A DNA stretch of 64,000 nucleotides from Treponema sp. (lineage in GTDB: Bacteria > Spirochaetota > Spirochaetia > Treponematales > Breznakiellaceae): contig WRLP01000004.1 in assembly GCA_009777535.1 (NCBI GenBank), positions 62,001 to 126,000 of the forward strand, read 5' to 3'. Of the stretch, positions 3,283-58,253 are shown piece after piece (position 1 is the stretch's first letter; each line of letters opens with the position of its first letter). The notes under the pieces were generated by a model, which searched no databases, had not been told where the DNA came from, and saw only the letters and a program-made list of their open reading frames with translations. Both the position numbers and the translations under genes were made by a program.

Positions 3283-4536
3283 TTGAGAAAACTACTGGTA
3301 TTTATTTTATTATTGCCCTTTTTATCCTGTGCTGCCCGCGATAAGAGCCCCGGCATACAGGACATAGTGAACCAATGGACTGTAATTGACCGGCTTTTTA
3401 CGGAAAACCTGGCCGGTGCAGATAATACCGTAACTTTAGACGAGGCATTAGCCGGCACTATCGATGTTTTTTATTTGTCGCTGGAGGAATTTCAAAAATC
3501 TGATTTGTACCGTACATACCGCGCCATTCCTTTTTCACCGCATACTGTGCGCAGCTTCGGTCCTTTGCTTCCCGCAGATATTCAGGAACTAAGCGTTGCT
3601 TCGGATTTGACATTGCTTCTTCGTGATTCCGTCGTTTCGGGGGACATTGAAAAGGCCCAGGCAGTATCCGCTGAAATTTCCGGAGTTCTTATCGGCCTGC
3701 TCATTATTGACGGGGATACGCAGCGCCATATAGGTTCTTCGTATTTTAAACTGCTTATTGCACTAATTGTCTTCATTCTGATTATCGCTATGCTTGTCCG
3801 GTTTTTGCATCAGTCCCTTGTCCATTCATTAAAACGGGAAGCCGATACAATGGTTTTTTCCCATGCCTACATGCTTGCCCAGGATGAGGAGCGCTCAAGA
3901 ATAAGCCGTGAATTACACGATACTGTTATTCAGGATATGCGTTACGTGCTGCTGGAAACGGAAAAAATGGGTAATACCGAAGAAAAAAGTGAAAGGGAAA
4001 AACTCAGTGCCAAAACAGTGCCCATAATGGCGGCTTTGATCAGAAAGACTCAGGGCTTATGCAGCGATCTGATACCCCCCGATTTTCGCTTCAGTGAACT
4101 GCCTGATGCTCTAAGGCAGCTTTGCCTTGATCTATGCGAAAAAACAGGGATTGACTGCCGCTCTGATATAGACGATACCATCAAGCTGGATTTTCTTACC
4201 ATGGAAAAAAGGCTGCAGGTTTTCCGCATTGTTCAGGAAGCCCTTGCGAATATCGAAAAACATTCCGATGCGAAAGAGGCCATCGTTACAATGTGTCTGG
4301 CGCAAAATGGAACTGTTTTTATCAGTATTAGTGATGATGGGAAAGGTTTTATATCCCCTTTGGATAATAACGGGCAGATTATATCCGGCATTGAAAAATC
4401 ACACATAGGCATTATCAGCATGAAGGAACGCGCTGCAATACTCGGCGGTGTTCTTAAAATAATCACTGAACCGGGGGAAGGCTCCCTGGTTTGCCTGGAA
4501 ATTCCTTCTCATTCACCCTCAGGAAAGGAACAGTAA
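3283..4536 (+). CDS. Sensor histidine kinase, NarL/DesK-type (HisKA_3)
   Basis: 417 aa. The start is TTG at 3283 with AAAGGAAAG 7-8 nt upstream. A signal-like N-terminus ends in LPFLSC (C16), so the kinase may be lipidated. Residues 17-155 would be extracytoplasmic, a single membrane helix spans about 156-178, and a dimerisation/phosphoacceptor helix follows with SRELHDTV (H212). The ATPase domain shows the N-box at N323 and DDGKGF at 351-356. The stop codon shares bases with the ATG of the response regulator (TAATG), so the two form a translationally coupled pair. The sensed signal is unknown; the sensor region matches no family I recognise. Confidence 0.9.
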   Translation: MRKLLVFILLLPFLSCAARDKSPGIQDIVNQWTVIDRLFTENLAGADNTVTLDEALAGTIDVFYLSLEEFQKSDLYRTYRAIPFSPHTVRSFGPLLPADIQELSVASDLTLLLRDSVVSGDIEKAQAVSAEISGVLIGLLIIDGDTQRHIGSSYFKLLIALIVFILIIAMLVRFLHQSLVHSLKREADTMVFSHAYMLAQDEERSRISRELHDTVIQDMRYVLLETEKMGNTEEKSEREKLSAKTVPIMAALIRKTQGLCSDLIPPDFRFSELPDALRQLCLDLCEKTGIDCRSDIDDTIKLDFLTMEKRLQVFRIVQEALANIEKHSDAKEAIVTMCLAQNGTVFISISDDGKGFISPLDNNGQIISGIEKSHIGIISMKERAAILGGVLKIITEPGEGSLVCLEIPSHSPSGKEQ

Positions 4537-5144
4537 TGGAAATAATGCTGATTGATGATCACCCGCTGTTAAATGCCGGCATAGCCTCAATTATCGAGAC
4601 AACGGGCATATTTACATCCTGCGTTCAGGCGGAATCGCTTGTACAGGCAATGAGCATTATCGAAAAATCCAAAACGCTGCCATCACTTATTATTCTTGAC
4701 CTCTTGTTAGGCGAAGAAAACGGGCTTGATTTTCTTCCCATGCTGGAAAAATATTGCCATGATAAAAAAGTCCCAAAGCCGCCTGTACTGGTTTGCTCCG
4801 CACTTGGAGATTCATTTAAAATACAGACCGCCATGAAACTGGGGGCCGCAGGCTTTTTATCAAAAACAGGCGGAAAGGCGGAATTGCTAAAAGCAATAGA
4901 TACAATACTTGACGGTAAAGTGTACATTTCAAACGAGCTAAATATCAAATTAAACGAGAATTTCCGCATTTACGCTAAGTTCTCAAAACGGGAAATCGAT
5001 GTGATCAATCTGCTTAAACAAAATAAAACAAATAAGCAAATTGCCGGTGCGCTGTGTATTAGCCACAGGACAGTAGAAAACTATGTAAGCAAAATTTATT
5101 TTAAAACCGGCTTTTCCAGCCGCGAAGAAGTACAAAAACTTTAA
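4536..5144 (+). CDS. LuxR/NarL-family response regulator
   Basis: 202 aa from the ATG at 4536, chosen over an earlier in-frame ATG at 4491 because AGGAAAGGA lies just upstream and the ATG overlaps the kinase stop. Receiver domain: D7-D8, phosphoacceptor D55 in IILDLL, S88, K110. A LuxR-type helix-turn-helix occupies about 148-202 (SKREIDVINLL, then NKQIAGALCISHRTVENYVSKI). It is the partner of the overlapping kinase and should bind DNA as a phosphorylated dimer. Its targets are unknown; the adjacent genes on this strand give no clue. Confidence 0.93.
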   Translation: MEIMLIDDHPLLNAGIASIIETTGIFTSCVQAESLVQAMSIIEKSKTLPSLIILDLLLGEENGLDFLPMLEKYCHDKKVPKPPVLVCSALGDSFKIQTAMKLGAAGFLSKTGGKAELLKAIDTILDGKVYISNELNIKLNENFRIYAKFSKREIDVINLLKQNKTNKQIAGALCISHRTVENYVSKIYFKTGFSSREEVQKL

Positions 5145-5186
5145 ACTGTCGCAGGGATATCTCGTTTTATACACCACGGCTTTTGC

Positions 5187-6395
5187 TTAAATTATACCAA
5201 ACTTCCATGCCGGAACAACCTCGATCTTCTTTCCTGCAGTTTGAATTATATCTTCGGTGTTAAATGTAATAATTTTTCCTATGCCAAGGTTAAAAAAGTC
5301 CATGGCAGCAATGGCGCCGTTAATTTCCCTGTCCTGGTTTTCCGCTGTTAATTCCCAGCATACCTGAATACATGACGGCTTATCGTGCGGGGAAACAATA
5401 AAATCGCACTCGCCGCCTTTCTTACCGGAAAAATAAAAAAGGTCTTTTGTTTTTAAACGCAGGGTGTTAAAAACAAAATTTTCCAGCAAAGCGCCCAGGT
5501 TACCGCTGAATGAAACAGAGCCGGTCTTAATCAGGCCGGTATCTAAAATATACGCTTTTTTGGGGCTAAGGCTTTGAGTTTTTAACGACCATGCAAAGCA
5601 TGGCAAAAGCTGAATAAGATACGTACTTTCCAAATACGAAATATATTCAAGTACCGTAGTGGGAGATTTAACACCGGCAATAGTTGTTAACTTGCTGGGT
5701 GAAAACATTTGTGCAGGATTGGAAACCAGATATACGAACAAGCGCCGTAAAGATGAAGTGTCTCGAATCCCGTATCTTACAGCTATATCGCGCAGCAAAA
5801 TATCTGACTGCAATTGTATAAGAATGTCATCATTGCCCGTTTTCAGGTATTCGGGAAACCCTCCCTTGTCCAGATAATCAGAGAGGGATTGCGGGCCCGC
5901 TTTTAACTTAAAAAAGGTTAGAAATTCTTTGTATGAAAAAGGGAACAATTCTTTGACTAGATGCCGGCCTGTCAGACGGGTTCCCAATTCCCGGCTTAAC
6001 AGGGAGGCATTTGAACCTGTAATGGCAAGCTGAAAACCCTCATCAAGTTTTTGCCTGACGTAGAGTTCCCATTGGTCCGCCGACTGTATTTCGTCAAAAA
6101 AGATCAATTTTGCACCGGAACCGGCAATTACATTGTCCAATAACCCGTAATCCACGGATGAAAAAGGTGCAAGGCGGACATCGTCAAAATTAAGGTAAAA
6201 ATACTGTTTTTTCTGCTTTTTGACAAATTGCCGCAATAATGTACTTTTTCCGCAGCGCCTGATCCCACTTACAACCAGGGCATGGCTTTTTATGCGGGGT
6301 AATAACGGTAAAAGCAGGCGTTCCATCCCCATTTCCAGTTTTTCAAGCGCAATTTTTTGACTGGCGCCAATTTCCTTTATTTCTGATAATCTCAT
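5187..6395 (-). CDS. AAA ATPase with DUF4143 C-terminal domain (locus 1)
   Basis: 402 aa from the ATG at 6395. Walker A G-x4-GKS at 44-51, Walker B IFFDE with D101-E102 followed by IQ, a sensor region TGSNASLLSREL, and a DUF4143 C-terminal half. In the C-terminal nuclease-like stretch CDFIVS is kept, but the usual ExK of the family reads QVCWEL, so a PD-(D/E)XK-type active site would be incomplete. The role of this family is not established. TATAAT at 6402-6407 lies six nucleotides before this ATG and no ribosome binding site exists for it or for an in-frame ATG at 6413, so a leaderless start at 6395 is preferred. Two 23-bp-spaced repeats lie upstream. Confidence 0.85.
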   Translation of the reverse strand: MRLSEIKEIGASQKIALEKLEMGMERLLLPLLPRIKSHALVVSGIRRCGKSTLLRQFVKKQKKQYFYLNFDDVRLAPFSSVDYGLLDNVIAGSGAKLIFFDEIQSADQWELYVRQKLDEGFQLAITGSNASLLSRELGTRLTGRHLVKELFPFSYKEFLTFFKLKAGPQSLSDYLDKGGFPEYLKTGNDDILIQLQSDILLRDIAVRYGIRDTSSLRRLFVYLVSNPAQMFSPSKLTTIAGVKSPTTVLEYISYLESTYLIQLLPCFAWSLKTQSLSPKKAYILDTGLIKTGSVSFSGNLGALLENFVFNTLRLKTKDLFYFSGKKGGECDFIVSPHDKPSCIQVCWELTAENQDREINGAIAAMDFFNLGIGKIITFNTEDIIQTAGKKIEVVPAWKFGII

Positions 6396-6401
6396 GGTTT
6401 G

Positions 6402-6407
6402 ATTATA
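6402..6407 (-). promoter_or_regulatory. -10 element of ATPase locus 1 (leaderless candidate)
   Basis: Perfect TATAAT on the minus strand, six nucleotides before the ATG at 6395. A 17-bp spacer would put the -35 at 6425-6430 (TGGAAT), inside the first repeat of the operator-like pair. Confidence 0.6.
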
Positions 6408-6424
6408 TACCATATATCAATAAT

Positions 6425-6467
6425 ATTCCAGTAGTAATGGAATAATTATTTCATTAGTAATGGAATA
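6425..6467. repeat. Two 20-bp operator-like direct repeats, 23-bp period
   Basis: Copies at 6425-6444 and 6448-6467 share GTAATGGAATA and most other positions. Each is also a partial inverted repeat (ATTCCA...TGGAAT in the first copy). They lie at and just upstream of the predicted -35 of ATPase locus 1, where a bound protein would block transcription. Confidence 0.7.
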
Positions 6468-6545
6468 TTATTAAAAATTGTGAGTTTTACACGGATATGC
6501 GGCATTTAATTGTGGTTTAACATGGAAGGGTAAAAGGAGTCATTT

Positions 6546-8468
6546 ATGAAGAACCTTGCAAAACTTGCCGGAAGCATCGCCCTTGCAGCGATGATCGGAT
6601 TCACTATAACAGCCTGTGATACCGGCTCCGGCGGCGGCAATGAGACGCAGCTTGTGTACACAGCGCTTGATACCGCTATTGCCAACGCCAATGCCGCAAA
6701 AGCCGCAGTGGAAGTCAGCGTCAGCGGAACCGGCAGCGAATTTGCCCCCGCGCAAAAGTGGGTTACACAGGCTGCCCTGGACGCCCTGAATGCCGCAATA
6801 ACAGAAGCTGAAACTGTAAGGTCCGCGGCAACAACACAGGAACAGGTTGATAACGCAGTAACTGCGCTTAATGCGGCGATAGCAGCATTTATCCCGCAAG
6901 ACGGCACAAAACCAGCGGACACAAGCGATCTGCAGGCGCTTATTGTCCAGGCCGAAACTCTTAAAGGCAGCGCAGTTGTCAGCACAGACGGCAGCGATGT
7001 AGCCCCAGAGAATTTTTGGGTAACACAGGCGGAAATGGCCGCACTAAACAATGCCATAACGGCAGCGGAAACCGCTGTTAACAGCGGCAGCAACATTGGC
7101 GAAGCCTATTCCGCACTTAATGCGGCAATGACCGCGTTTACAACAGCGAAAAAAGCGGGAACACAGGGCGGAAGTGGACCTGGTATCGTTGACAAAACTG
7201 CGCTTCAAAACAGGTACAACGAGCTAAAAGACACCACTCAAGGCAGCTACACTGATGCGACATGGACGGCGTTCCAGGCAAAACTGACCGCTGCCAAAAA
7301 TGTGCTTGATAATACGAATGCGACACAGGCGCAGGTAAACACCGCCCTTGCGGAACTGAATACCGCGTATGGGGCGCTTGAAGAACTCAACCTTGATCCT
7401 TACATAATAACCGGAAGCGGTACATCGTTCACCGCTGTCAAAAATGCCCAGACCATAGGAACGGCAAACAGTCCTATCCAAACCGTCATTAACTCAATAA
7501 GAGGCGACGCCGCAGGCAAGGACTGCGCCATACAGTTCGGCGATAATACAAGCGTATTGGATGTAGGTACAGAATATGTAAATTTTAACGGCGGAACAGG
7601 AGGAACCGCCTGGGGGAAGATAATGCTTTCCGGCAAAATCACTTCCAAAACCCCCTGGCCCTTCACTACGATTCATCTTGAAAACGGAGCATCCATAATC
7701 AGCACAGCAGATATTGAGCACACTAGTGGACAGAGTGCGATTCAAAATTCTTCTACCGGTTCGGTAATCATCTCGGGGGGCACGGTTTCTTCAAGCTACC
7801 GGACAATTTGGAACAATGTAAACGGCGCCGTAACCATAACAGGCGGCACGGTCGAGTCATCTGGGAACCAGGCTGCAATTTACAATTTTTCCACCGGTCC
7901 TGTAACTATATCAGGCGGTATAATAAGAGCAACGGGGGATAATGGCAGGGCAGTTCTCGATCAAAGCACCGGCACGGTTACAATATCCGGCGGCACGCTT
8001 TTAACAACAGCAGGTAATAGCTGGGCGGTAGTTTCCTTGGGAACGTTAAACATATCAGGCGGCACGATTAGAGCAACAGGAGACTGGAGTACAGCGGTTC
8101 CAAACATCGGAGGAGCGTTAACCATAACAGGCGGCACTATTGAAGTTACGGGATATGCGAGCACAGCGGTTTCAAATGCTGACGAATGCACGACAACAAT
8201 CACAGACGGCACGATTAGGGCAACGGGGGGTAACAACAGGGCAGTTCTTAATCAAGGCAACGGAGCAGTAACGATCACGGGCGGCACGATTGAAGCGGCA
8301 GGAGACGACGGCATTGCGATTCAAAACAATATGACAGGCTCGATAACAATCACAGACGGCACGATAAGGGCAACGGGGACGGGTGGCAGATCAGTTGTCA
8401 ATGCCGGAACCGGCAGTATTTCTGTTACATCACCGCCGGCGGTAATCGAGCCGCCGTATGTGCCGTAA
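6546..8468 (+). CDS. Lipoprotein with FIVAR-like modules and beta-helix repeats
   Basis: 640 aa. The signal peptide ends in a lipobox with C24, followed by a flexible DTGSGGG. Three alanine-rich helical FIVAR-like modules lie at about 35-115, 128-203 and 217-280; the third (YNELKD...TDATW) is closest to the canonical FIVAR of Gram-positive adhesins and glycosidases. From about 398 to 630 there are nine or ten 21-25-residue units of the form VTISGGTIRATG, predicted to wind as a right-handed beta-helix. Probably anchored at the cell surface, binding polysaccharide or host material; the ligand is unknown. AAAGGAG precedes the ATG. Signal peptide and first FIVAR module are nearly repeated in the next gene. 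Confidence 0.85.
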   Translation: MKNLAKLAGSIALAAMIGFTITACDTGSGGGNETQLVYTALDTAIANANAAKAAVEVSVSGTGSEFAPAQKWVTQAALDALNAAITEAETVRSAATTQEQVDNAVTALNAAIAAFIPQDGTKPADTSDLQALIVQAETLKGSAVVSTDGSDVAPENFWVTQAEMAALNNAITAAETAVNSGSNIGEAYSALNAAMTAFTTAKKAGTQGGSGPGIVDKTALQNRYNELKDTTQGSYTDATWTAFQAKLTAAKNVLDNTNATQAQVNTALAELNTAYGALEELNLDPYIITGSGTSFTAVKNAQTIGTANSPIQTVINSIRGDAAGKDCAIQFGDNTSVLDVGTEYVNFNGGTGGTAWGKIMLSGKITSKTPWPFTTIHLENGASIISTADIEHTSGQSAIQNSSTGSVIISGGTVSSSYRTIWNNVNGAVTITGGTVESSGNQAAIYNFSTGPVTISGGIIRATGDNGRAVLDQSTGTVTISGGTLLTTAGNSWAVVSLGTLNISGGTIRATGDWSTAVPNIGGALTITGGTIEVTGYASTAVSNADECTTTITDGTIRATGGNNRAVLNQGNGAVTITGGTIEAAGDDGIAIQNNMTGSITITDGTIRATGTGGRSVVNAGTGSISVTSPPAVIEPPYVP

Positions 8469-8483
8469 AGAAAGGAGAAATTG

Positions 8484-9608
8484 ATGAAGAACCTTGTAAA
8501 ACTTATCGTAAGCATCGCCCTTGCTGCGATGATCGGATTTACCATAACAGCCTGCGATACCGGCTCGGGCGGAGGCAAAAGTAAAACAGTAATATTCAGC
8601 CTTGATACGGTTGACGAAACTAGCTTTGTCATCACTTTACAGGGAGCTAATTGGGACAGCGACTTAGAAGACGATGATCTGGCACTTAGTCTAAGATTTA
8701 CCGGAAGATGTATTGACTCTTCTGAATATGAAAGTATCTTGCGCTATACCCATTTTGACATGGTAAAATCGAGCAATAAGGCATTAACTTTTACGCTTAT
8801 GGACGATTTAGCCATTTCGGAATCTGCAACCATAAGTTTTACGCCTTCCGGAGAAAATGGCTCTCTAGTACAATATGGCTGGTATGTTACTGATGGAGGT
8901 ACTTCTGTAGAATCTTATGGAGATACCACGTATCAGTTAAATTCCAATAAAAGCAGTATAACCTTACCTGTCGGCAAAGAGTCCCCACTTATCTACACAG
9001 CGCTTGATACCGCTATAGCTAACGCCAAGGCTGCAAAAGCCGGAGTGGAAGTCAGCGGCGCTGGAGATGGCAGCGAGTTCAGCCCTTTAATACAGTGGGT
9101 AACACAGGCCGCCTTGGACACTCTGAATGCCGCCATTACAGAAGCTGAAACTGTAAGGTCTGCGGCAACAACACAGGAACAGATTGATAATGCGGTAACT
9201 GCGCTTAATGCGGCAATGGCTGCGTTTACAACAGCGAAAAAAGCGGGAACACAGGACGGCGGAGGGGGCAGCAGCCTTATTGGAACATGGATTGGGGTTA
9301 CTGTTGATGAGATTTTGACATTTGATATTGATGGTAATTATGAATCGATAATGGACGGCAAGAAGGATACCAAAGGGATTTATAGCGCCAGTGGTCAAAC
9401 ACTCAATTTAACGATCACCTCTATGGGAGGGGGGAAGCTTGGATCTGGATATGACATAGAAAAATGGTACACAGTACCTGAAATTGATCCCTTTCTTCTT
9501 TTGTTTGTGGGGGATTACTTTACTACTTTCCAAGGGACTTATTCAATATCCGGCGATACGCTTACAATTGTTTTTTTGGGCAATACGGACGTTTACAACA
9601 GAAAATAG
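8484..9608 (+). CDS. Lipoprotein: N-terminal beta domain, FIVAR module, lipocalin-like C-terminus
   Basis: 374 aa from ATG 8484 (AAAGGAGA upstream; a TTG three bases earlier is less likely). The first 30 residues nearly copy the preceding lipoprotein, with C24 as lipid site. Residues about 31-165 form a beta-rich domain I do not recognise, about 166-255 a FIVAR module very close at DNA level to the first and second modules of the previous gene, and about 265-374 a lipocalin-like barrel beginning LIGTWIG and ending in an NRK tail typical of such Treponema proteins. It follows the first lipoprotein by 15 bp, so the two form an operon. Likely surface-exposed; function unknown. Confidence 0.82.
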   Translation: MKNLVKLIVSIALAAMIGFTITACDTGSGGGKSKTVIFSLDTVDETSFVITLQGANWDSDLEDDDLALSLRFTGRCIDSSEYESILRYTHFDMVKSSNKALTFTLMDDLAISESATISFTPSGENGSLVQYGWYVTDGGTSVESYGDTTYQLNSNKSSITLPVGKESPLIYTALDTAIANAKAAKAGVEVSGAGDGSEFSPLIQWVTQAALDTLNAAITEAETVRSAATTQEQIDNAVTALNAAMAAFTTAKKAGTQDGGGGSSLIGTWIGVTVDEILTFDIDGNYESIMDGKKDTKGIYSASGQTLNLTITSMGGGKLGSGYDIEKWYTVPEIDPFLLLFVGDYFTTFQGTYSISGDTLTIVFLGNTDVYNRK

Positions 9609-9660
9609 AGTTATCCATAAACTTATGAACAGCAGAAAACTACTTAAGCGAAAGCAGCAT

Positions 9661-9992
9661 TCACTCAAGCCATAAGGCCGCTGTCGGGACAGCAAGGAGG
9701 TTTTCTGCGAACCGAATCGTTCTGTCGCCGGAATATAAAATAATTCCGGTATAGGGTTTTTTAGTTTTTAAGATGTTTTCTGCAAACCATTCCTGCGGCC
9801 TAAGATCACTTTTGGAAACGCTGTGCCCGGCCTTTACTTCAACGCCAAGCAGAGAACCGTCGTCGTTTTCTACAATAAAATCTATCTCTCTGTTTTGCCT
9901 GCCTGCCTTGCGCCGGAAATCACTACAACACGGCGTAGCTTCAGAGCCCCTCCAACACCCTCTACCTGCCATCGTTTTAATTCTTTTGCCAT
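9661..9992 (-). pseudogene. Deletion remnant of an AAA/DUF4143 ATPase (locus 2)
   Basis: On the minus strand an ATG at 9992 with a perfect AAAGGAG 6-7 nt upstream opens a frame reading MAKELKRWQVEG..., reaching a Walker A (SGARQAGKT) and stopping two codons later. In another frame the same DNA continues as GRQNREIDFIVE...LLGVEVKAG, the C-terminal signature of DUF4143 ATPases, and runs to a stop at 9661. The simplest reading is an internal deletion of roughly 300 codons that joined the P-loop to the C-terminal nuclease-like segment out of frame. The 23-bp repeat array at 10012-10149 is its former promoter region. Confidence 0.8.
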
Positions 9993-10011
9993 AAAAGCTC
10001 CTTTTTCGCCT

Positions 10012-10149
10012 CTGCGAAAAGCATACTATAGTCCCTGCGAAAAGTATAGTATAAGCCATGCGAAATGCATAGTAGAACTTATGCGAAAAGTATAGTATAA
10101 GCTATGCAAAAAGCATGCTTTAACCCATGCGAAAAGGGTATCGCCATTC
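10012..10149. repeat. 23-bp tandem repeat array, six units
   Basis: Units start at 10012, 10035, 10058, 10081, 10104 and 10127, exactly 23 bp apart; the last is degenerate. The consensus reads (A/C)TGCGAAAAGTATAGTATA on the plus strand. On the minus strand each unit carries TATACTATAC followed by TTTTCGCA, so every copy holds a -10-like hexamer. The array ends about 20 bp upstream of the start of the broken ATPase gene at 9992 and reads into it. Confidence 0.9.
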
Positions 10150-10197
10150 GAAGGGTAGAGGCCAGGATTCCCGAACTTTGGGCGTAATAATATCATC

Positions 10198-10296
10198 TTG
10201 CCCTTATATTTTTTCATTATTTGGTTATTTTTGCCTTTATATTTAAGCAAAATCAGTTTAAGTTTGCCCTTATATTTTTTAATTTATACTTGTTTT
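10198..10296. repeat. Three direct repeats at exact 33-bp spacing
   Basis: TTGCCCTTATATTTTTT at 10198, TTGCCTTTATATTTAAG at 10231 and TTGCCCTTATATTTTTT at 10264. The first 14 bases are conserved with one change and the rest of each 33-bp unit is variable. The third copy reaches the predicted -35 (TTGTTT, 10290-10295) of the ATPase gene at 10337. The spacing, about three helical turns, puts all copies on the same face of the DNA. Confidence 0.85.
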
Positions 10297-10318
10297 AGCC
10301 ATAATATTGATTTATACT
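10290..10318 (+). promoter_or_regulatory. Promoter of ATPase locus 3
   Basis: TTGTTT at 10290-10295, 17-bp spacer, TATACT at 10313-10318. Initiation about 7 nt later leaves a leader of some 12 nt that just includes the AAAAGAGG ribosome binding site. Confidence 0.6.
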
Positions 10319-10336
10319 GGTTAAAAGAGGGCATCT

Positions 10337-11650
10337 ATGGCTTATAGGTATATGAAACGCAATATAGACGATGTTTTTTTAACATGGAAAAATGAGAAAA
10401 ATCGCAAAGTTTTGCTGCTTCGTGGTGCGAGGCAGGTTGGTAAATCCAGTTCTGTAAGGAATTTGGCTAAGCACTTTGATCATTTTTTAGAAGTAAATTT
10501 TGAAAAAGACATAAAAATTCATACTTTGTTTAATGGTGATTTAAACGTAAAAAATATTTGCGAAAATTTGTCTGTTTTGCTAAAAGTTCCAATAATTCCG
10601 GGGAAGACACTCGTTTTTTTCGATGAAATTCAAAGCTGCCCGAATGCCATAAGTTCTCTAAGGTTTTTTTATGAAGATTATCCTGAACTACACTTAGTAG
10701 CGGCCGGCTCGCTTTTAGAGTTAGCATTGGAAACATTGCCTTCTTTTGGAGTGGGTAGAATTCGATCTGTTTTTATTTACCCGCTTTCATATATGGAGTA
10801 TCTGTATGCATGCGGAGAAAGCGCTCTTTGGGACAAGGTAAGGGAAGCTTCACCCGAAAAACCTTTGTTTGAACCGTTTCACTTAAAATGCCTGGAATTC
10901 TTAAGAAAATTTCTGATAACAGGGGGAATGCCCGCCGTTGTAGCAGATTATGCTGAAAACAGGCAACTATACGATTCCCAAATAATACTTGATGATTTAG
11001 TAAATACATTTAAGACAGATTTTTCGAAGTATAAAAAACGAGTTCCCGATTTAAGAATTTCAAACGCATTTGATGCAGTAGTAAGCCAAAGCGGAACCAG
11101 GTTTAATTATTCAAAAGTAGAACCACTGAATAACAAACAGGTTAAGGAAAGCATAGAATTACTGCAAAAAGCCGGACTTGTGATACCGGTTATTCATTCA
11201 GCATCAAACGCCTTGCCGCTTGGAGGAGAAATCAATTCAAAGAAACAAAAGTTTATTTTACTGGACACAGGAATCTTTCAGCGTTTACAGGGTCTGGAAT
11301 TATCAGATATTTTACTTGGCGACAATATATCATTTGTTAACAAAGGCGCCATAGCCGAGCAGTTTGCCGGGCTGGAATTATTAAAATCGTCATCCTGTTA
11401 TTCCCGGGCAAGCCTTTATTTTTGGTCAAGAGAAAAACCCCAAAGTAATGCAGAGATAGACTATATTGTCCAAAGAAGCTCTAATATTATCCCAATCGAG
11501 GTAAAGTCGGGAAGCTCCGGAAAAATGCAAAGTATGTATACTTTTCTTACAGAAAAAAAGTTGGAATACGGCATACGCACCTCGCTGGAAAATTTTTCTG
11601 TGTATGACAAAATAAAAGTATACCCGCTTTACGCCATAGGGACTTTGTAA
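10337..11650 (+). CDS. AAA ATPase with DUF4143 C-terminal domain (locus 3)
   Basis: 437 aa. Walker A GARQVGKS at 30-37, Walker B VFFDE with D96-E97 then IQ, sensor AAGSLLELAL, and PLSYMEYL, which marks the family. The C-terminal domain keeps a full EIDYIV...IPIEVKSG stretch, an intact D-(x)n-ExK pattern of the PD-(D/E)XK nuclease type, unlike locus 1. Members are widespread and often multi-copy in gut bacteria, with no agreed function. AAAAGAGG precedes the ATG by about 7 nt. The phased 33-bp repeats and promoter lie directly upstream; the gene ends 6 bp from a convergent gene of unknown function. Confidence 0.88.
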   Translation: MAYRYMKRNIDDVFLTWKNEKNRKVLLLRGARQVGKSSSVRNLAKHFDHFLEVNFEKDIKIHTLFNGDLNVKNICENLSVLLKVPIIPGKTLVFFDEIQSCPNAISSLRFFYEDYPELHLVAAGSLLELALETLPSFGVGRIRSVFIYPLSYMEYLYACGESALWDKVREASPEKPLFEPFHLKCLEFLRKFLITGGMPAVVADYAENRQLYDSQIILDDLVNTFKTDFSKYKKRVPDLRISNAFDAVVSQSGTRFNYSKVEPLNNKQVKESIELLQKAGLVIPVIHSASNALPLGGEINSKKQKFILLDTGIFQRLQGLELSDILLGDNISFVNKGAIAEQFAGLELLKSSSCYSRASLYFWSREKPQSNAEIDYIVQRSSNIIPIEVKSGSSGKMQSMYTFLTEKKLEYGIRTSLENFSVYDKIKVYPLYAIGTL

Positions 11651-11656
11651 GCCCCT

Positions 11657-12640
11657 CTATTTAACGCCGGATAGATATCTCTTAATCGCAAGGTAATCGC
11701 TGAAGAATTTCGGGAAGCTCATGTTAAGCTCGCCGGCTATTGCGGCGAATCTGTAGCGGGTAAAAATTTCCTGGTACATTTCACAATCCCTGTTTGCCTG
11801 CTCCACTATTGCCCAGCCCCTGTCCAGCGGGCCGCGTATCAGGAAACTGCCGTCTCGTGAACATGTCATGTGATAGATTTTTCTGCCCGCCTTTGACTTA
11901 AGGTAAATTTGCGCGCCATACCATGGTTCGGCAACAGCTTCCCCTGTTTTTGCAGCAGCCTGCTCTTCGTATAACATATCTTCATTATAATCAAAAGTAT
12001 TAACAACCGGCGCAGCATTGTTTCCCGTGAAAAACTGATACAGATCGCCCCAGTAACAGCAGAAAATATTTTCATTTTGGGATTTATACATTTCATGATA
12101 CGCCGGTTTTACATTGCCCAACGCAGCAAAATAATCCCTGAACTCATTGTTTGAAATTTTTTGGGGCAATACAGCGATAAAATAATATTCTTGTGAGCCT
12201 TTTATCAATTGGCATGATTTTTTTATTGATTTATTGCCGGATATATCATTCCCAAGGTTAACATTGTTCTGCAGTTCATTCATTAAATGCAAACGGCCGA
12301 AAATATTACCGGAAACAATTTCTTTACCAGCCTTTTTTTTATTAAGCTCGTTTTTAAGCCGGAAAAAATGCTGTTTTATTGAATAGCTTCCATCTTCCGT
12401 TTTTACGCTTCCATCAATGAAAAACACTGTTGTCTTACCATCGGATTCTCCGGTCATAAGAAGATCGCAGCTTCCATTACTGCCAAAAGCCTGGTCTACA
12501 AGATATGTAAAATTAGTATAGTTTTTACCGGTATGAATACCGAGTTTTTCCAGAAAAGCACCTGTCAAGCCGGGGTTTTGCTCAAGATAATACGCAATAC
12601 TGTTAAAAATACCGCGTTCAGAATAACCGAATATCGACAT
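11657..12640 (-). CDS. Protein of unknown function, 327 aa
   Basis: I do not recognise the family. No signal peptide or membrane helix is seen, so it is probably cytoplasmic. The N-terminal third contains CDLLMTG followed by TTVFFIDGSVK, an acidic-strand-strand-lysine arrangement that could be a divergent PD-(D/E)XK-like core, but this is weak. The middle is lysine- and asparagine-rich; the C-terminal third has aromatic and charged helices. TATAAT and GTGAGG lie upstream of the ATG. It converges with the DUF4143 ATPase of locus 3 with 6 bp between the stops and is the last gene of the accessory region. Confidence 0.65.
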   Translation of the reverse strand: MSIFGYSERGIFNSIAYYLEQNPGLTGAFLEKLGIHTGKNYTNFTYLVDQAFGSNGSCDLLMTGESDGKTTVFFIDGSVKTEDGSYSIKQHFFRLKNELNKKKAGKEIVSGNIFGRLHLMNELQNNVNLGNDISGNKSIKKSCQLIKGSQEYYFIAVLPQKISNNEFRDYFAALGNVKPAYHEMYKSQNENIFCCYWGDLYQFFTGNNAAPVVNTFDYNEDMLYEEQAAAKTGEAVAEPWYGAQIYLKSKAGRKIYHMTCSRDGSFLIRGPLDRGWAIVEQANRDCEMYQEIFTRYRFAAIAGELNMSFPKFFSDYLAIKRYLSGVK

Positions 12641-24170: not shown

Positions 24171-24300
24171 GCTATAGTTATGTAACGCTTACGAAGGGGG
24201 CATCTTTCTACAATTGCTATAATAGTGAAACGCTTACGAAGGGGGCATCTTTCCGTAGTTGCTATAGCAGTGAAACGCTTACGAAGGGGGGCTTAAAAGT
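24171..24300. repeat. 45-bp tandem repeats, three copies
   Basis: Units begin at 24171, 24216 and 24261, exactly 45 bp apart, with a shared core AACGCTTACGAAGGGGG followed by CATCTTT in the first two. Each starts GCTATA, and the second contains TATAAT. The third runs into the last codons of the cyclic-nucleotide-binding gene ending at 24293. Units follow each other without spacers. Confidence 0.85.
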
Positions 24301-58028: not shown

Positions 58029-58200
58029 AACTAAGTAACAATAATCCACTGATTTACACGGATTTTCACGGATTATTTTATCATTGTTTCCACAGTTTTA
58101 ATTAAATTTTAATCCGTGTTAATCCACTTAATCCGTGGTAATCCGTGGTAACCCTTTTAATTCGTGTTAATCCGTGTTAATCCGTGCTAATCCGTGGTTA
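58029..58200. repeat. AATCCGTG-type 10-bp tandem repeats with inverted copies
   Basis: Eight or so copies of TAATCCGTG(G/T) at about 10-bp steps from 58111 to 58197 (starts 58111, 58121 variant, 58130, 58140, 58159 variant, 58169, 58179, 58189), preceded at 58050-58077 by the complement CACGGATT twice. The two groups could pair. No coding potential. This is most of the 260-bp gap between the MBL gene and the next gene. Confidence 0.8.
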
Positions 58201-58253
58201 CCCGCCTTATACATCTTCGCAAAATTCCCTCTGCTTTTTTTTTATACCTGTGA

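Follow-up and report, generated by a model that had tools for sequence, protein, structure and literature searches.

The closest described relatives of the genes studied here belong to PDC-S01, a family of single-gene ATPases fused to a PD-(D/E)XK domain, which a 2026 survey, without experimental validation, ranks fourth in frequency among the defence-type families of prokaryotes, with 29,494 bacterial and 9,986 archaeal cases (PMC12988326). Among single loci in rumen genomes, PDC-S01 ranks first in frequency (PMC13356809). The literature that we found, which took in few subscription journals and no bioRxiv, contains no upstream operators, DNA recognition or specificity code for this family. 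We analysed a 64,000-nucleotide stretch of a Treponema sp. genome (contig WRLP01000004.1, positions 62,001 to 126,000; hereafter the window), part of a 2.77-Mb genome in 47 contigs, that holds three loci of the AAA_14-DUF4143 ATPase type, each with an array of repeats. Near homologues occur in Treponema MAGs, which points to a probable gut spirochaete near that genus. Our reading of these sequences, to which we assign a probability of roughly 80%, is that each AAA_14-DUF4143 gene is a self-contained unit whose product would bind a private operator array at its own promoter.

PADLOC profiles for PDC-S01 match all tested proteins, with E-values down to 1e-133, and the likeness extends to the ATPase-PD-(D/E)XK fusion, the single-gene organisation and the great abundance. 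PDC-S01 stands in the literature as an unvalidated defence candidate; the upstream operators and the specificity code are added here. Phage repressors and toxin-antitoxin autorepressors are autoregulated DNA-binding repressors with private operators. The present loci have in common with them cognate sites at their own promoters and a specificity that drifts with the protein, but the reader here would be an AAA+ ATPase in which a winged helix is joined by a PD-(D/E)XK-like domain as the other reader, and the phased arrays have a clade-specific spacing. The mode proposed here resembles known private-operator autoregulation, and its new elements would be the type of protein, the reading by two domains, the clade-fixed phasing and the residue-base code.

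The genome carries 25 intact DUF4143 genes plus a remnant at 9661-10059. The window contains two of the intact genes, termed L017 and L018, and the remnant, with the following features (repeat units are called operators throughout):

5187-6395, minus strand: L018, intact AAA_14-DUF4143 ATPase with the catalytic lysine replaced (QVC); start placed by homology.
6424-6444, no strand assigned: L018 operator unit 1, dyad TATTCCAGTAGTAATGGAATA; the same operator occurs in L116, L118 and L370.
6447-6467, no strand assigned: L018 operator unit 2, 23 bp from unit 1.
9661-10059, minus strand: remnant of an ATPase of the c23 type, with only the DUF4143 end recognisable by Pfam.
About 10013-10136, minus strand: 23-bp operator array of the remnant, of the TATACTTTTCGCA type on the minus strand; matches arrays of the intact L072 and L090.
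10196-10221, plus strand: L017 operator unit 3 (distal), in the 26-bp motif frame.
10229-10254, plus strand: L017 operator unit 2, in the 26-bp motif frame.
10262-10287, plus strand: L017 operator unit 1 (proximal), with a spacing of exactly 33 bp.
10337-11650, plus strand: L017, intact AAA_14-DUF4143 ATPase of 437 residues, PADLOC PDC-S01.
11048-11260, plus strand: winged-helix part of L017, residues 238-308; residue 267 (codon 11135-11137) covaries with operator position 19.
11438-11443, plus strand: L017 codons 368-369, in a loop of the PD-(D/E)XK-like domain; they covary with operator positions 9 and 10.
11528-11530, plus strand: L017 codon 398, which covaries with operator position 4 (Q with G; K, R or P with A).

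Both AAA_14 (PF13173) and DUF4143 (PF13635) score above the curated cut-off in L017 and L018; in the remnant Pfam matches only the last 25 positions of DUF4143, below the curated cut-off. The longest open reading frame of L018 begins at 6413, and homology puts the start at 6395, in agreement with the preliminary description of this DNA. That description also reported arrays at all three ATPase loci, and each is present: a 23-bp pair, a 23-bp array and an exact 33-bp triplet. The L018 array comprises two 21-nt copies, 19/21 identical, at a spacing of 23 bp, and each copy is itself a dyad (TATTCCAGTAGTAATGGAATA), so the direct pair described earlier stands while its purely direct nature does not. 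The L017 array has three copies exactly 33 bp apart, with 19-nt units starting at 10193, 10226 and 10259, and Tandem Repeats Finder (TRF) counts 5.4 copies in the array of the remnant (score 103). The upstream regions of L017 and L018 each beat 200/200 of their own dinucleotide shuffles (z of 6.8 for direct repeats at L017; 7.8 for direct and 11.3 for inverted repeats at L018). As a separate observation on 9661-10136, the 23-bp array of the remnant survives though the ATPase gene has shrunk to a tail that still carries EIDFIVENDDGSLLGVEVK.

Repeats of this kind are strongly enriched before these ATPases. We scored a gene as positive when a direct or inverted repeat within 150 bp before its start reached p <= 0.01 against dinucleotide shuffles. 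By this measure, 24/25 DUF4143/AAA_14 ATPases of the window's genome carry repeats, against 15/161 control genes whose upstream gap was 60 bp or more (Fisher 6e-19), and one of those 15 controls is itself an ATPase; genes with a shorter gap are positive in only 2/139 cases. Related genomes gave 58/82 ATPases against 9/137 controls (p 5.5e-24). Across phyla, repeats precede 56 of 86 L017 homologues, drawn from Bacteroidota, Fibrobacterota/Chitinispirillia, Spirochaetota, Calditrichota, Victivallales and viral contigs, against 28/172 controls from the same flanks (p 7e-15). The possibility raised in the preliminary description, that such repeats might be no commoner before other DUF4143 ATPases than elsewhere in the same genomes, did not hold, since controls were far poorer in them in all three comparisons. 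The upstream regions are AT-rich (mean GC 0.35), as would suit repeats that arose by chance or slippage and were inherited with the gene, but this explanation is hardly credible: it is contradicted by the shuffles, by the same-genome controls and, as described below, by exact clade-specific periods across phyla and by held-out residue-base coupling. At one locus, L025, a strong direct repeat (AGCAGGGAGCA) was rejected as an operator, being microsatellite-like and present elsewhere in the genome; the candidate operator there is the dyad TATAGACCAAA...TTTGGTCTATA. The microsatellite-like sequence upstream of L025 (G000:C17, about 3480-3530) reads AGCAGGGAGCAA and recurs in contigs C15, C36 and C8 of the genome.

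The geometry of the arrays is fixed by the ATPase clade. On a tree of 107 ATPases the repeat spacing follows the clade, at 33 bp, 23 bp, about 40 bp or as single dyads, and the repeat sequence drifts within clades. Averaged over upstream regions, autocorrelation peaks at 33 and 66 in the L017 family (11 standard deviations above base; 9 in the related clade c33), at 23, 46 and 69 in clade c23 (11.6 standard deviations) and at 40 in the RRCGK clade, c40 (5 standard deviations). Controls show only weak peaks (at most 4 standard deviations), mostly at multiples of three, as expected from coding sequence. Among the 86 L017 homologues, all 54 of 54 significant direct repeats have a period of 33 or its double, within 1 bp. 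An independent test used 90 new ATPases, most from 15 other genomes, whose clade was settled by profile ahead of any repeat scoring. Periods of 32, 33, 64 or 66 were found in 20/20 significant cases of c33, a period of 23 in 6/6 of c23, and periods of 32 or 33 in 7/7 of cBR; cIR had mostly dyads.

Close proteins keep their operator. The TATTCCATTACTAATGGAATA of L018 recurs in sister genomes (L116 and L118) and, as TTTCCATTACTAGTGAAA at 23 bp, in Parabacteroides gordonii (L370), and the array of the remnant matches those of its intact relatives L072 and L090 in other genomes. The preliminary description further suggested that private operators would let many paralogues coexist without cross-talk. 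Operators of paralogues that coexist in a genome are no more different than those of paralogues from different genomes at equal protein identity (39 against 5011 pairs), so selection against cross-talk is unsupported.

The evidence that ties the operator to the protein itself comes from covariation in the L017 subfamily. A 33-periodic motif fitted to the L017 family by expectation-maximisation, TTTTGCCTTGAATTTTTTAAAAAAAT, is present in at least two copies at 77/88 loci. Coupling between operator positions and protein columns was measured as mutual information with average-product correction on 77 loci, a few new homologues included. The top pairs were residue 369 with position 10 (z 11.1), residue 368 with position 9 (z 9.1) and residue 398 with position 4 (z 8.8), with residue 267 and position 19 joint fourth (z 6.6). 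As a phylogenetic null, operator positions were simulated 200 times along the protein tree, giving a maximum z of 8.91, with 7.7 at ranks two and three; the three leading pairs exceed all 200 simulations and so lie beyond phylogenetic noise.

The coupling also holds in new family members from other genomes, whose operators were located by the fixed training motif. In the 24 held-out loci with at least two copies, residues 267, 368, 369 and 398 each rank first among the 437 protein columns for their own base. Base 10 is predicted from residue 369 with an accuracy of 0.85 (commonest base 0.62, nearest relative 0.68), and base 9 from residue 368 with an accuracy of 0.78 (0.63 and 0.52, respectively). 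Pooling training and held-out sets into 101 loci gives the following code. Q398 accompanies G4 in 79/79 resolved cases, and K, R or P at 398 accompanies A4 in 12/13. K or R at 368 goes with G9 (36/36), and L or A with T9 (11/11). At position 10, A is found with G or K at 369 (37/37) and with Q369 (16/17), G with N369 (12/15) and T with S369 (10/13). R267 occurs with C19 in 25/25. Residue and base also tend to change on the same branch of the tree: four times against 0.33 expected for 398 and position 4 taken as classes (p 2e-4), nine against 3.75 for 369 and position 10 (p 0.003), and 12 against 7.3 for 267 and position 19 (p 0.02). The switch at 398 can be seen inside the window's genome, where L017 has Q398 with operator GCC and L019 has K398 with operator ACC.

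That the letters of the repeat change with four residues of the ATPase is a strong indication that every such ATPase recognises its own gene and controls it, and the coupling together with the held-out ranking makes it very probable that the L017 ATPase is itself what binds the array at its promoter. Repeats alone do not reveal their reader, and the array could be read by a separate regulator encoded elsewhere, the ATPase being merely the regulated gene. We consider this very unlikely in view of the held-out coupling with the ATPase, of a spacing that tracks the ATPase clade across phyla, and of the neighbourhoods of 86 loci, among which no regulator recurs. No neighbour is in fact widespread at these 86 loci except another ATPase of the same superfamily, so the unit appears to be one gene plus its array. 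When all 25 operators were compared with the genome, by blastn of concatenated operators and by pattern search, only their own loci and chance-level matches were found. The preliminary description had left the reader of its private operators as either the ATPase or a matched regulator; covariation in the L017 subfamily, clade-fixed spacing and the lack of detectable trans sites or of a conserved neighbouring regulator favour the former.

Several results weigh against binding of each array by its own ATPase. Covariation is seen in the L017 subfamily only; in the other 33-bp clade (46 loci, with ambiguous motif registration) the maximum z is 5.5, not above noise. The pair of residue 267 and position 19 taken alone (z 6.6) lies below the simulated maximum, and same-branch changes of 368 and position 9 (8 against 6.9 expected) are not significant; both pairs pass the held-out test. 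Positions 4 and 19 are predicted equally well by the nearest relative as by the residue. The simple score finds no significant repeat in 24/82 relatives and 30/86 homologues, many of the latter 30 still peaking at 33. Lastly, a sigma-70 scan at the window loci found promoters no better than chance.

A structural model of L017 places the covarying residues in two separate domains. The AlphaFold2 model, built with 81 homologues, has a predicted local distance difference test score (pLDDT) of 90.9 and a predicted template modelling score (pTM) of 0.91. It comprises, in order, an AAA+ core, a winged-helix-type unit (residues 238-308) and a domain with the D375/E388-V-K390 pattern of PD-(D/E)XK proteins, the domain names being assigned from secondary structure and motifs. 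Residue 267 opens helix 266-278 of the winged helix, a position in the model as expected of a recognition helix. Residues 368 and 369 lie in the loop preceding the D375 strand, and residue 398 starts a helix.

Searches gave no match in NCBIfam or PHROG, and no relative by sequence in the PDB. By structure, the best matches are the archaeal ATPases PABY2304 (2qen; Z 16.7, root mean square deviation 4.5, 271 aligned) and SSO1545 (2fna; Z 15.0, root mean square deviation 4.6, 274 aligned), followed by NLR/AP-ATPases; the match to the two archaeal proteins covers residues 1-319 at about 15% identity and leaves the C-terminal domain outside, and structure-search matches overall span mostly residues 1-360. 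Foldseek also ranks DNA-bound archaeal Orc1/Cdc6 high (2qby and 2v1u, E about 3e-6). Like Orc1/Cdc6 and iteron initiators, the L017 type has AAA+ plus a winged helix and repeated binding boxes, but it has an additional PD-(D/E)XK-like domain and many chromosomal paralogues, with no sign of origin function. The fold, the direct repeats at helical phasing and the patchy distribution would suit an iteron-like origin or mobility end, in which the unit would replicate or transpose by way of binding sites in the repeats, on the model of plasmid initiators or Orc1/Cdc6. With 25 solitary chromosomal copies in one genome, arrays on the promoter side only and no recurrent element neighbours, we hold such a role to be highly doubtful.

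The catalytic motif bears on what the protein might do beyond binding. D375, E388 and K390 are present in L017 and conserved in the 81 homologues, and ExK is intact in most of c33, c23, cIR and cBR. L018 has QVC in its place, ExK is found in 0/11 members of the L018 clade (c18), and most of c40 has likewise lost ExK; in many members of these two clades QVC, QVA or QVT stands in its place, without the catalytic lysine. These clades have nonetheless retained their operators, so operator function seems independent of catalysis.

An alternative in which catalysis matters is that operator recognition serves to cut or silence DNA coming in from a phage, plasmid or element with the same ATPase-operator unit, whereas the protein would tolerate or only repress the copy at its own promoter. 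PDC-S01 would then read bases in a programmable manner through its PD-(D/E)XK-like domain, with a decipherable code made up of loop 368-369, residue 398 and the winged helix, and a genome would hold at least about twenty independent one-gene versions of homoimmunity or exclusion. The intact motif of L017 and most clades, the standing of the family as a PADLOC phage-defence candidate, and array-bearing relatives on plasmids and in viral contigs (for example L215 and L216) speak for it. It leaves the sparing of the promoter copy unexplained, and it fits poorly with operators kept after ExK was lost from all of the L018 clade and most of c40; we regard the proposal as a whole as unlikely. The L018 operator gave only partial, weak matches in phage records, and no L018-type relatives were found in viral contigs.

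For binding of the array by its own ATPase, we propose the following mechanism. In the L017 subfamily, reading would be shared: the 3' AT-rich part of the operator, roughly positions 16-20, would fall to the winged helix, and positions 4-11, the core that carries G+C, to the PD-(D/E)XK-like domain at the C-terminus. Each clade has its own phasing (33, 23 or about 40 bp between units, or a dyad), which would place several protomers or dimers in fixed register on the DNA; comparable binding may take place in the other clades. Occupancy would repress the promoter, and the ATP state is a probable switch; DNA cleavage or defence may be the role of the protein once released. Autorepression seems to us the likeliest use of the array, as the arrays occupy the promoter and the genome searches revealed no further copies.

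Promoter overlap is seen in Bacteroidota, where units of the GC type coincide with a TAnnTTTG box in 29/60 cases against 8/46 of other units (p 0.001). This box is the known -7 element, and its coincidence with the units puts the operator on the promoter in this phylum. Within the Bacteroidota arrays of the L017 family, units over the -7 box tend to have GCC at positions 4-6, the others more often GGT, GAT or GGG. Tandem repeats upstream of a potentially toxic gene also recall type III toxin-antitoxin systems, in which an antitoxin RNA made from the array would inhibit the ATPase. This is extremely improbable: in many members the array amounts to just a dyad or a pair of units, promoter elements and units coincide, Rfam has no match in window positions 4500-12000, and the unit covaries with two distinct DNA-reading parts of the protein, of which one is a winged helix.

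Other features of the window were noted. Between the ATPases lie two secreted, lipoprotein-like genes (6546-8468 and 8484-9608) with near-identical signal regions and FIVAR-like segments in common, the first holding many TITGGT-type repeats. Elsewhere, an array at 58107-58203 has about nine TTAATCCGTG decamers (TRF periods 10, 29 and 49), and a tandem repeat of 45 bp lies at 24184-24290 (2.4 copies, 90% matches).

For PDC-S01, these results mean that a likely DNA target can be read for each gene, that changes of specificity may be predicted from four residues, and that assays become possible without a phage. They suggest a role in base-sequence reading for a PD-(D/E)XK domain that resembles nucleases. 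The family would offer many different pairs of protein and operator, a natural collection in which the geometry is fixed.

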